A stretch of DNA of 49,967 bases from Synergistaceae bacterium OttesenSCG-928-I11 (lineage in GTDB: Bacteria > Synergistota > Synergistia > Synergistales > Synergistaceae): NCBI GenBank assembly GCA_030266365.1, contig JAJDHV010000005.1:1-49967 (forward strand), in the 5' to 3' direction. Position numbers and translations under genes: made by a program. How positions within the stretch are numbered: position 1 is the stretch's first letter; each line of letters starts with the position of its first letter. This document shows, in pieces, positions 13,522-18,054 of the stretch. The notes beneath the pieces are model-generated. The model was not told the DNA's origin. It worked only from the letters and a program-made list of their open reading frames with translations, and did no database searches.

Positions 13522-15387
13522 TTACTGTGATTGAGCCTCGGAAGCCGGTTGGATCCGATACATCGACGGACTCAGATATTGCGTCAATTCTCTGAGAAGC
13601 TCCTGGCTTCTGAACTCCTGCGCATGATTGAGCAACTCGAAGAGTAACTTGGATGTCGGCCTCTTTTTAAACGCCTGATAGAGATTGTTTATACCTTGTG
13701 TTACGATTTCATCATTTTTTTGGAGTTTCCCGACATTGATGAAAAGCTGAGCGAGTTGCTCCTTTGCATCGTCACGAGACATCAAACGCGTTTCAGCTTT
13801 TTTCAGTAATTCCTGTTTCTCAAGAACACTGCTCTGTTTGGCGACGGCATTGTAGATAAGCTGGTCCCCCTCGATTCCGCCCGCAAGGAAAACAAAACCG
13901 TAAACGGCGATTCCCGCGATGAGCCCTCCAAAACACTTATAGATAAAGTCACTCACCGTTGCCGTTAATTTGATCGATCGCGGCAGAATGGAGCGATTCG
14001 CCAGCGCAAAGGCAAGTGCCATCCATACCGAATTTTCAATTCGATGAAATGGGCGGCTGAACAAAGCGTCGAACCACAGAAGAAAGGTCATCGCAATCCC
14101 CCAAATTGCTTCGGGCGGCAGTTGTTTGCGTTGTACGAGGGCTTTTATGAACGCGTACAACCACCAAATGCCCAGCAGGAGCAGGATACCAGCTCCGGCA
14201 ACACCCGTTTCCGCAAGCCATTGAATATATTCGCTGTGTGCCCAATATGTAAACTGCCAATTATAGCCTGGTTTGTCGTAAAGTTCTGGGTATTTTTGGT
14301 ACATAATTCGCTGCGCATCCAAAAAATGCCATTTATATTGACCGAGACCGACCCCGGTAATCGGTTGCTTGAGATAGACTTCCCAACTGGTTTTCCATAT
14401 GCTCGCTCGCCCGGCAATCGAAGCCGGGTTCTTGAACATATCGAGCATCTTCCAAACCAAAGAACCGCCCCGGTCGGTTCCTAAGACGGAACTTGCCGCC
14501 AACACGATGACCACGAAAAAAACGATGACTCCAAAGAGCTTGAAAGATCTGCGCAACGCCTTGTGTTGCCCTGTTCTCCAAAGGCTGAGGACGAGAACGA
14601 CGAACGCGACGATCAGAGAAAGGATCCCTCCTCTTGCGGTCGAACTCCATAACCCCCACGCGTTGACGGCAAGAACGACGAGATTTGCCCATATGATTGG
14701 TTTTTTCATGGCATTTTGGCCTTCTTCAGTCTCGTCGATATAATTTAAATGAAGAAAAAGACCGTTCAACACAGTCATTGCAGTCCAAAGCCCAAACATC
14801 TCCTGTTGCGCCGTATTGCCAATATAATTACCGGGAACGTCTAGAATGAAGGGGAAACCGGAATTCAATCCGCGTATCAGCAATTCCGCGAAAATGACGT
14901 TGATCGCAGCGTTTACATTTCCACCCCAGAGAATGATTTTATGCAGTCGTTTGGATTTGAAAACATTGTATGCGAGAAAATAAACTGCAAAGAGGGATGC
15001 AAAATAGAACCACTCTTTGGCGAATGTAGAAGCAGAAGAAAGTTTGATATATAGCGGCTGAAGGGAAATGATTAAAAGCAGAATCAACCATGCGAAGGCG
15101 AACGGGTCCAGGGTGAAGTCGGTTCTTTTTGCACCGAAACGAATTAACTGCACACCGGCAATCAAAGTCATCACGCCGATCGGGGCCATCGTAACCGTCC
15201 ATTTCATGATATGCAGCGTGTCGAAAAAATGCCTGCCGGAAAAGACCAGATTGGGCAGCGCAAAGGAAATGAAAAAAGCGATAGAAAGCAACCACATGGG
15301 TACAAGTGGTTGCTTTTCTGCAATAGCACTTCTAGCGCCTTTGAATTTTTCGGCGTTCTTAAATTTGTTTTCTTTGGTCTGTGCCAT
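13522..15387 (-). CDS. O-antigen ligase family membrane protein (Wzy_C; possible pilin O-oligosaccharyltransferase)
   Basis: Polytopic membrane protein of 621 residues with about 12 hydrophobic segments and a C-terminal soluble extension of about 110 residues. The Wzy_C family signature is the periplasmic loop ending in WAHSEYIQWLAETGVAGAG, containing the conserved His, preceded by GVGLGQYKW. Such enzymes transfer lipid-linked glycans to lipid A (WaaL), to growing O antigen (Wzy) or to pilins (PglL/TfpO). The helical C-terminal extension resembles the TPR tails of PglL-type ligases. The ATG overlaps the parB-like stop by one base (TAATG), and three pseudopilin genes lie downstream, so a pilin-linked role is plausible but not proven. 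Confidence 0.82.
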   Translation of the reverse strand: MAQTKENKFKNAEKFKGARSAIAEKQPLVPMWLLSIAFFISFALPNLVFSGRHFFDTLHIMKWTVTMAPIGVMTLIAGVQLIRFGAKRTDFTLDPFAFAWLILLLIISLQPLYIKLSSASTFAKEWFYFASLFAVYFLAYNVFKSKRLHKIILWGGNVNAAINVIFAELLIRGLNSGFPFILDVPGNYIGNTAQQEMFGLWTAMTVLNGLFLHLNYIDETEEGQNAMKKPIIWANLVVLAVNAWGLWSSTARGGILSLIVAFVVLVLSLWRTGQHKALRRSFKLFGVIVFFVVIVLAASSVLGTDRGGSLVWKMLDMFKNPASIAGRASIWKTSWEVYLKQPITGVGLGQYKWHFLDAQRIMYQKYPELYDKPGYNWQFTYWAHSEYIQWLAETGVAGAGILLLLGIWWLYAFIKALVQRKQLPPEAIWGIAMTFLLWFDALFSRPFHRIENSVWMALAFALANRSILPRSIKLTATVSDFIYKCFGGLIAGIAVYGFVFLAGGIEGDQLIYNAVAKQSSVLEKQELLKKAETRLMSRDDAKEQLAQLFINVGKLQKNDEIVTQGINNLYQAFKKRPTSKLLFELLNHAQEFRSQELLRELTQYLSPSMYRIQPASEAQSQ

Positions 15388-16616
15388 TACGCATCGCTCT
15401 CCTGTGAAACAGCGGTGTTGCCGAGAAAGTCGACGGAGATTTCTACGACAAGCGCACTTTGGTCCATTTGTTTTACCTTCCACTGCGCGGAGATCCCTCG
15501 GTTCCTGTGTTTGTTGATCAACGTTGCGAGATCGCCGAGCAACTCTCCGGCCGGACCGTCCGTCGCTTCCTGAGATCTTTTTTCGTTTCTGCGGTTTGTT
15601 TTTTTGCCGTCGTGCCAGCTTTCTGAGAGAAGCTCAAGCGCTCTGGCACTTAAATCTTCGTCGATCGCTTTTTGCGCGAGCATCCGCTGTTCCTCAACGG
15701 AGAGGCTTAGAAGGGATCTGGCTTGGCGTTCGCCGAGTTTCCCGGAAATGACAAGATCCTGCACGGATTGGTCCAGGCGCAAAAGCCGCAATTTGTTTGC
15801 GATGGACGCTTGTGAACGACCGGTTCTGCGAGAGAGTTCCGTCTGGCTCCACCCTGTTTTTGAAATAATATCCTGCAAACACATCGCTTCTTCGATCGCT
15901 GACAGGTTTTTTCTTTGAATGTTTTCAACCAAGGCAATAATTTGCTGTGTCAAAGGTTGCGTCGCGACAACCATCGCGGGAATTTCAGTCAACCCTGCTC
16001 TTTGTGCCGCACGCAACCTTCGCTCGCCGGCTATCAACTCGTATGCATTCCCGACCTGTCTGACCAATATCGGCTGAAGCACACCGAGTTCCTTTATCGA
16101 CTGCGAGAGTTCCGTAATTTCATTCTCACCCATAATCTTTCGTGGTTGAAATGGGTTGGGTTTTACGCGTGCGACCGATATTTTTAGTAACGTTTCGTCG
16201 CCATGTCCCTGCACATCCATGATGCCCGTCATTGTTGCAGCGTCCAAAGTATTTGTGTCCAAGTTTTCAGCAGTCGGTGTGGATTCCTCTGCCGGAGTTT
16301 CTGCATTGCCCACTTCTTTTTCAGCCTCAAGAAGTTCGGAATCAGTTTGTTGGTTTTGCGTGTCTGCATGCAGGTCGGTTAATTGGGGAAAAGCCTCCGG
16401 GTTTTCGGCAGGGCGTGATATTTCCGTCAAAAGAGTATCTGGATTTTCATTCTCGATAACGTCATCAATAGCGCGCTCTGTATGCTCGAGAGCGGCCATC
16501 AATTGGTCGTTGATCTGTTTTTTTTCATTTTCGGAATGAAGCGTCGTCTCACCCGGTGCATCCTCGCCATCGGGGTTTTTCAAAAATCTTAAAATGTCCC
16601 ACATTTTATCGGCCAC
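15387..16616 (-). CDS. ParB/Noc-family CTP-dependent DNA-binding protein with a long acidic N-terminal extension
   Basis: A ParB-fold protein of 409 residues from GTG 16616, with AGGGGG 7 nt upstream. The ParB core starts at about 142: KPNPFQPRK, box I SIKELGVLQPILVR, the CTP-binding box II GERRLRAAQRAG (197-208), box III ENIQRKNLSAIEEA (231-244), then a helix-turn-helix (WSQTELSRRTGRSQASIANK, 256-275). Ahead of this is an amphipathic segment (MWDILRFLK, 5-13), reminiscent of the membrane-targeting helix of Noc, and about 125 acidic, Thr/Asn/Glu-rich residues probably disordered. The C terminus (about 365-400) is the likely dimerisation domain. No partner parA is present. It is translationally coupled to the ligase and follows dnaB by 82 nt. 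Chromosome-segregation ParB is the alternative reading. Confidence 0.82.
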   Translation of the reverse strand: MADKMWDILRFLKNPDGEDAPGETTLHSENEKKQINDQLMAALEHTERAIDDVIENENPDTLLTEISRPAENPEAFPQLTDLHADTQNQQTDSELLEAEKEVGNAETPAEESTPTAENLDTNTLDAATMTGIMDVQGHGDETLLKISVARVKPNPFQPRKIMGENEITELSQSIKELGVLQPILVRQVGNAYELIAGERRLRAAQRAGLTEIPAMVVATQPLTQQIIALVENIQRKNLSAIEEAMCLQDIISKTGWSQTELSRRTGRSQASIANKLRLLRLDQSVQDLVISGKLGERQARSLLSLSVEEQRMLAQKAIDEDLSARALELLSESWHDGKKTNRRNEKRSQEATDGPAGELLGDLATLINKHRNRGISAQWKVKQMDQSALVVEISVDFLGNTAVSQESDA

Positions 16617-16659
16617 AATAACGCCCCCTGCTGATTACCATAAATTCACAAGCTGTAAT

Positions 16660-16698: not shown

Positions 16699-18054
16699 TT
16701 AATTCGGATAGTACGCAATACTCTCGAAACGCGATATTTCTTTGTAAAAAACGAGATCGATCTTTCCGGTCGGACCGTTGCGATGCTTGGCAATTGCCAG
16801 TTCGGCAGTCGGGTCGGACGACTCTTTATCCTGCTGATAATATGCGGGGCGATACAAAAACGCAACCAAGTCCGCATCTTGCTCAATTGCACCGCTGTCT
16901 CTCAGATCCGAAAGCATGGGGCGTTTATCCGCACCTCTTTTTTCTACCTCGCGCGACAACTGAGACAACGCGATAACAGGAACCTCGAACTCCCTCGCAA
17001 CACCCTTCAAAGCTCTGGATATGTCCGAAACCTCCTGCTGGCGATTTTCCGCCCTCTTGCTGTTTGCCATTAACTGCAAATAATCAACGATGACCAACGA
17101 TTTCTCTTCCCGATGCTTGCTGAAAAAACGACGGCATTTCGATCGAAGTTCCAAAGTCGACAGCATCGAACTGTCGTCGATAAAAATCGGTGACCGGCTC
17201 AATCTCGCAACGGCATCCGTCAGAGCGTTCCATTGATCGCTTCGCACTTTGCCCGCCTGCTGAAGTTCCTTCAGATTCACTCTGGCTTCCGAACTCAAGA
17301 GACGTCCTGCCAACTGCTCTGCGGACATTTCGAGGCTGAAGAGCAACACGTTGACGTCGTCTTCGAGAGCCGCTTTTTGGGCGACATTCAAAGCGAGAGC
17401 CGTTTTACCCATAGACGGTCTTGCTGCGATGATGTTCAGACTGCCGGGCTGGAAACCGCCCGTCAATTTGTCGAAATCGCCGAAACCGGATGCAATGCCG
17501 TTGGCCGTCGGGCCTTCGGAGATGCTTTTTTCGATTTGATTGAACGTACCGATGACAACGCTCGATATCTCTTTGAATGCGCTTTTGGAACCGAGCCCGG
17601 CGATTTCGAAAACGCGTTGTTCCGCAGCCGCAAGGGCATCCGCCGAATCCATTTCTTCACTGAAACCTGTACGCGCAATATCTGCACCGACGCGTATCAA
17701 ATCTCGATGAATCGATTTATCCTTGACAATCGAACAGTGGTGTTCCGTGTTGGCGGTCGTTGTAACACAATCCACAAGCATGGCTACGAAAGAAATCCCA
17801 CCGACTCGCTCCAGCAAATTGCGCTTCAGCAACTCTTCGCGAAACGTCAGGGAATCGACAGCCCTGTCTTTCGACGCCATCTCCGACATAACCTCGAAAG
17901 CAACGCTGTGCCGGGGTTCGTAAAAATCCTCAGGTCTAAGGGACTCTACGACGAATAGCAGAGCGTCCTTATCCAGTAAGGATGCTCCCAGTACTGCCCT
18001 TTCCGCATCCAGGCTGTTGGGCGGAACTCTGTCCGGTGTGCCGTAATCCTGCAA
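16699..18054 (-). CDS. dnaB: Replicative DNA helicase DnaB
   Basis: Hexameric replication-fork helicase, 451 residues. The N-terminal domain (VPPNSLDAERAVLGASLLD, about 10-105) is followed by a linker and the RecA-like domain with Walker A ARPSMGKTA (211-219), Walker B SLVIVDYLQLM and the arginine-finger region ALSQLSREVEKR. No intein is present. The start is TTG 18054, 1 nt after the rplI stop (18056-18058); no ATG exists before residue 57, and AGAGG lies within the end of rplI. The rplI-dnaB order is a widely conserved bacterial arrangement. Confidence 0.95.
   Translation of the reverse strand: MQDYGTPDRVPPNSLDAERAVLGASLLDKDALLFVVESLRPEDFYEPRHSVAFEVMSEMASKDRAVDSLTFREELLKRNLLERVGGISFVAMLVDCVTTTANTEHHCSIVKDKSIHRDLIRVGADIARTGFSEEMDSADALAAAEQRVFEIAGLGSKSAFKEISSVVIGTFNQIEKSISEGPTANGIASGFGDFDKLTGGFQPGSLNIIAARPSMGKTALALNVAQKAALEDDVNVLLFSLEMSAEQLAGRLLSSEARVNLKELQQAGKVRSDQWNALTDAVARLSRSPIFIDDSSMLSTLELRSKCRRFFSKHREEKSLVIVDYLQLMANSKRAENRQQEVSDISRALKGVAREFEVPVIALSQLSREVEKRGADKRPMLSDLRDSGAIEQDADLVAFLYRPAYYQQDKESSDPTAELAIAKHRNGPTGKIDLVFYKEISRFESIAYYPN

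Follow-up and report, generated by a model that had tools for sequence, protein, structure and literature searches.

Noc has been described as restricted to the Firmicutes, and the residue pair R173/G201 as invariant in ParB; DNA reading has been assigned to individual positions, Q173 reading A at site position 1 and R201 reading C at position 6, with a lysine at 179 or 184 being permissive (PMC7383237). Bacillus Noc carries a 10-residue N-terminal amphipathic helix, which CTP is proposed to release (PMC4331003, PMC8429893). The Noc sites of Bacillus subtilis and Staphylococcus aureus are dispersed and origin-proximal, with 41 loci in S. aureus (PMC5540599). Among the open-access papers that we searched, none described Noc in Synergistota. 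Here we describe a Noc-type ParB paralogue from Synergistaceae bacterium OttesenSCG-928-I11, encoded in a stretch of 49,967 nucleotides (contig JAJDHV010000005.1) that is referred to below as the window, and we compare it with its relatives.

The gene lies on the minus strand, with a GTG start at 16616 and a TAA stop at 15389-15387; the equivalent start in relatives is also preceded by a ribosome site. The features of the locus, and the basis on which each was assigned, are as follows.

13522..15387, minus strand: O-antigen-ligase-like membrane protein (Pfam Wzy_C; one-base overlap with the noc-type gene; synteny)
15387..16616, minus strand: Noc-type ParB paralogue, 409 aa, GTG start (open reading frame and Pfam domains)
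15429..15554, minus strand: C-terminal helix and beta hairpin, dimerisation-like, residues 355-396 (AlphaFold prediction)
15618..15911, minus strand: ParB HTH DNA-binding domain (HTH_ParB), residues 236-333, containing the four specificity residues (Pfam PF17762; alignment to Noc 7ng0)
15915..16193, minus strand: ParB_N CTPase domain, residues 142-234 (Pfam PF02195; GERR and ENxxR motifs; invariant columns)
16194..16577, minus strand: variable acidic spacer, residues 14-141 (composition; AlphaFold helix 29-55; poor conservation)
16578..16613, minus strand: N-terminal hydrophobic/amphipathic segment, residues 2-13 (ADKMWDILRFLK), a candidate membrane-targeting sequence (muH, f1 conservation, AlphaFold helix)
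16624..16629, minus strand: Shine-Dalgarno sequence AGGGGG, 7 nt ahead of the GTG (sequence)
16699..18054, minus strand: dnaB, the upstream neighbour in all relatives whose contig spans the region

A single base, at 15387, belongs both to the noc-type stop and to the ligase ATG (TAATG). Pseudopilin and T2SSK-like genes, recognized by weak Pfam matches, come after the ligase, and no parA adjoins the noc-type gene in this neighbourhood. A preliminary description of this DNA had placed the start of the ParB core near residue 142, with no parA alongside and a one-base overlap with a membrane ligase, and the Pfam boundaries and the sequence agree with it on each of these points. With the GERR and ENxxR motifs present in the window protein, CTP binding and hydrolysis are putative activities, as is inhibition of division.

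Residues Q269, K275, R280, and R297 of the window protein correspond to positions 173, 179, 184, and 201 of Jalal 2020. Q173, K179, and R201 were found in all examined orthologues, and the four positions read QK(K/R/Q/H)R in the paralogues versus RKxG in nearly all canonical ParBs of Synergistales; throughout the order, canonical ParB has R173, K179 in nearly all cases, and G201 save in part of genus g32. The LGxGL ParA-binding motif is absent from the window protein, as from the other sampled members of its family, and R173 and G201 are missing from the window protein too. In the window genome, which is 55.6% complete at 1.85 Mb, contig C2 encodes a further ParB, of the canonical type, with an LGKGL ParA-binding motif and an overlapping parA. 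One exact parS (GTTTCACGTGAAAC) and three parS with a single mismatch all lie on this 35-kb contig, as does dnaA, which in relatives is about 9-100 kb from parAB. A search for another ParB with a ParA had been suggested as a check on the Noc-like reading; it yielded this canonical ParA-ParB-parS set on a separate contig near dnaA, and the reading survives. The same results bear on the possibility that the window protein is an ordinary second chromosome-segregation ParB acting on parS with a distant ParA. Its score against the TIGR04285 Noc model (about 219-220 bits, the curated cut-off being 315) is no better than that of the canonical ParB of the same genome (219.4 bits), as might be argued in favor of such a role; however, LGxGL and R173/G201 are missing, and a canonical ParB with its own parA and parS is already there. 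We consider this role very improbable. TIGR04285 was rejected as a discriminator of Noc, as it gives the canonical ParBs of these genomes the same scores, and a PDB search was uninformative in telling Noc from Spo0J, the phmmer scores of the window protein being tied at 138.6 bits to Noc 7ng0 and 138.3 to Spo0J 6sdk.

The window protein begins with MADKMWDILRFLKNP, in which residues 5-13 (MWDILRFLK) form the short amphipathic segment recognized in the preliminary description. The helical moment, muH, is 0.64 for MWDILRFLKNP (P about 0.05 versus shuffles of the first 25 residues); among the paralogues it is moderate, reaching significance in some only and not in several relatives. AlphaFold places a helix at residues 2-13 of the window protein, with low pLDDT. 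In relatives from family f1 the N-terminal tip is near-identical and the spacer behind it can hardly be aligned, so that conservation of the tip is more than would be expected by chance. In most paralogues a short hydrophobic stretch (MADKMWDILRFLK, MDVVRFLK, EWDVARFLN, MAGVLNFLR, or MLGAGRFF) comes straight after the ribosome site, which answers the concern, raised at the outset, that homologues might lack the helix. The segment is absent from the paralogues of genus g32, G144, and G099. At loci L200, L210, L211, L182, and L192 the noc-type paralogue was kept and the N-terminal segment is missing. We infer that the segment of the window protein would bind membrane. Residues 15-141, described beforehand as about 125 acidic and probably disordered residues, are indeed acidic (26% D/E, 4% K/R); they are not wholly disordered, as AlphaFold predicts a helix at 29-55 and disorder at 76-138.

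We searched 20-kb intervals around canonical parB for the NBS consensus, ATTTCCCGGGAAAT. Most genomes with the paralogue have an NBS near parB, usually forming its last codons and stop (TTA TTT CCC GGG AAA TAA, encoding L F P G K stop), and in most of them one to three canonical parS lie beside it. NBS14, allowing up to one mismatch, was found in 27 of 32 intervals with the paralogue versus 3 of 19 without it (Fisher 3e-6, kinship uncorrected). The three intervals having an NBS without the paralogue came from G051, G012, and G116, the last two being drafts of 82% completeness. At locus L169 (G051, 99% complete) the NBS lies at the parB end and the noc-type gene was not found; it looks like a relic, or the gene was missed. 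In the window genome parB1 ends in TTATTCCCTAGGGAATAA (LFPRE), which is fully palindromic and retains A1 and C6, and the NBS variant is ATTCCCTAGGGAAT; in f2 the parB end is TTATTTCCGCGGAAATAA (LFPRK). The variants LFPGK, LFPRE, and LFPRK indicate that the C-terminal peptide of ParB varies along with the palindrome. That the LFPGK peptide itself drives the DNA pattern was rejected by G090 and G111, which encode LFPGK without the NBS codons; the paralogue was found in neither. Also rejected was a role for the parB-end palindrome as a transcription terminator: none of the four ends that were folded is followed by a U-run, in two of them the palindrome is not what folds, and more copies lie off gene ends.

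For genome-wide scans we used the degenerate pattern ATTYCCNNGGRAAT, which covers the NBS variants. Because this pattern was framed after the window-genome site had been seen, what counts in that genome is that nothing else matches and that there is a second site: over the 1.85 Mb only two matches occur, both at parB1 and separated by 1.05 kb, one of them being the parB1 stop region. In other genera, scanning for the exact NBS leads to the same outcome as the degenerate pattern. The 20 genomes that have the paralogue contain 53 matches in all, 30 of them no more than 10 kb from parB1, where 0.19 were expected; such matches are present in 19 of the 20 genomes, and in 12 every match is there. 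In 24 genomes without the paralogue none of the 22 matches lies near parB1, 10 of the 24 having no detectable parB and so none by default. In three single-contig relatives the sites with up to one mismatch to NBS lie at parAB in every case (3/3 in G002, 4/4 in G022, and 2/2 in G005). A genome-wide count of ATTTCCCGGGAAAT at two mismatches gave no enrichment in the window family; the only informative features of NBS are where they lie with respect to parB and the exact core.

Two further observations concern individual sites. Of the two NBS-type sites in the window genome, the one outside parB1 (L150, 10328-10341) falls 1.05 kb beyond that gene, within a YigZ-like reading frame; G016 and G115 have similar codons, which are lost in G018 and G129. 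On contigs C2, C5, and C7 of G029 there are recurrent dispersed copies of TTTTCCCGGGAAAC, distinct from the NBS at its parB, which could be a repeat element.

This distribution is what classical nucleoid occlusion has to be weighed against. According to that explanation many origin-proximal NBS would be bound and the divisome blocked there, as by Noc of Bacillus and Staphylococcus, and the specificity residues, the consensus NBS, and the N-terminal segment are the same as in Noc. Away from parB1, however, matches occur at 0.48 per Mb in genomes with the paralogue versus 0.43 per Mb in those without it, which is background (strongly degenerate sites would escape the scan), and we judge nucleoid occlusion of this kind distinctly unlikely. 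As far as predicted sites go, the confinement of NBS is a real difference from Noc of B. subtilis and S. aureus. The Noc-like reading of the preliminary description is supported by the specificity residues and the matching NBS, and most homologues carry the candidate N-terminal segment; genome-wide nucleoid occlusion is unsupported by the site distribution.

Orthologues of the window protein occur in families f1, f2, f3, f4, f5, f6, and f8 and in one f10 genome of the order. The gene order secA...argS-ftsB-like-rpsF-ssb-yybS-rplI-dnaB-noc-type gene-ligase is shared by 22 contigs, as far as each contig reaches, the ligase not being found beside the noc-type gene in 3 of the 22; judged by this synteny, the paralogues across families are orthologous. 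A noc-type gene without a detected canonical parB was seen in draft genomes only, and several f1 genera have neither gene. The f1 genomes G001, G003, G006-G008, G010, G011, G015, G019, and G020 gave no match to the window protein or the Noc model and appear to be without both chromosomal ParBs. In the deep-branching family f11 (L217, L218, and L219) noc lies beside parA-parB as in Firmicutes, and the NBS is inside the noc gene itself, with one mismatch in L218.

Gene order had also suggested that the protein links DNA to the secretion/pseudopilus apparatus encoded downstream, and the order noc-ligase-pseudopilin is widely conserved, with its one-base overlap. But the upstream neighbors dnaB, rplI, and rpsF are at least as constant, the 50-kb window contains no NBS-type site, and the sites lie instead at parAB near dnaA. 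We regard this suggestion as extremely improbable.

With a little more confidence than doubt, we propose that the protein is a Noc-type CTP clamp loaded beside parAB that would tether the origin region to the membrane, and not a chromosome-wide division inhibitor. It would load as a CTP clamp on the few NBS at parAB and slide over the adjoining parAB and origin DNA, and its N-terminal segment would attach the loaded DNA to the cytoplasmic membrane; the origin region, with its ParB-parS complexes, would be held at the envelope alongside ParABS and in coordination with it. The protein would be Noc-like in DNA loading and membrane binding, but would serve as a single-locus origin tether. Sequence alone cannot separate tethering from gene regulation or replication control, and the protein might be a local regulator, whose binding at the 3' end of parB would tune expression of parAB or flanking genes, limit ParB spreading, or restrain replication initiation. 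In its favor, there are only a few sites, located at parB and no more than tens of kb from dnaA; Noc of S. aureus has an effect on replication initiation, which it restrains (PMC5540599); and lineages without the N-terminal segment retain both the gene and the NBS. Such a regulator would, however, leave the conserved N-terminal segment of most lineages unexplained, and the site lies at the 3' end of parB rather than at an evident promoter; on balance we think local regulation rather unlikely. On the proposed tethering function, Synergistota would provide a Noc-type clamp in many families of a second phylum with predicted sites only beside parAB, a case that would separate loading and membrane binding from chromosome-wide nucleoid occlusion.

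Genus g32 offers a natural test of the specificity residues. Its canonical ParBs read RKKR in G036, G065, and G075 and RKNR in G083 (L161, L162, L187, and L188). These R201 loci contain no GTTTCACGTGAAAC and have instead one to three copies of GTTTCCCGGGAAAC, a hybrid with G1 from R173 and C6 from R201, exactly as expected from PMC7383237; the congener G097 (L189), with RKNG, kept two normal parS. We regard the combination of R201 and hybrid parS as natural confirmation of the published specificity code.

In a tree built with the four specificity residues masked, the Synergistales paralogues form one clade (100/99), joined to the canonical ParB of Synergistales (95/84); Firmicutes Noc and the deep Synergistota Noc of f11 group together (93/88), apart from these paralogues. 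A single Noc clade was not rejected by the AU test (p 0.473; p 0.676 in a larger set), and following these tests we withdrew convergent origin as a firm claim; it is possible that the Synergistales paralogue is convergent with Firmicutes Noc. Tentatively, and with more doubt than confidence, we suggest that Synergistales may have gained Noc-type specificity independently, from a ParB with the permissive K179, that the product may act as an origin-membrane tether, and that its loading site in the parB stop region may shape the C-terminal peptide of ParB.

Compared with canonical ParB/Spo0J, the window protein has the same ParB_N and HTH domains, ties in the phmmer search, and joins Synergistales ParB in the free tree, but it lacks a ParA-binding motif and a neighboring parA and has other residues at 173 and 201. 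With the noc-type genes of f11 (L033-L036) it can be likened in specificity residues, which are QK(K/R)R in f11, and in having an N-terminal tip, MWFGK in f11; those genes differ in lying beside parA-parB, in grouping with Firmicutes Noc, and in having the NBS inside the noc gene. The closest comparison is with Noc of B. subtilis, Geobacillus, and S. aureus (TIGR04285). Unlike them, the window protein belongs to another phylum, is encoded next to dnaB rather than next to parAB, falls below the TIGR04285 cut-off, has a 127-residue acidic spacer, and has its sites confined to parAB. Like them, it combines a ParB CTPase domain and an HTH with Q173, K179, and R201 and no ParA-binding motif, begins with a short hydrophobic/amphipathic segment followed by a variable spacer, and is matched by the NBS consensus ATTTCCCGGGAAAT.
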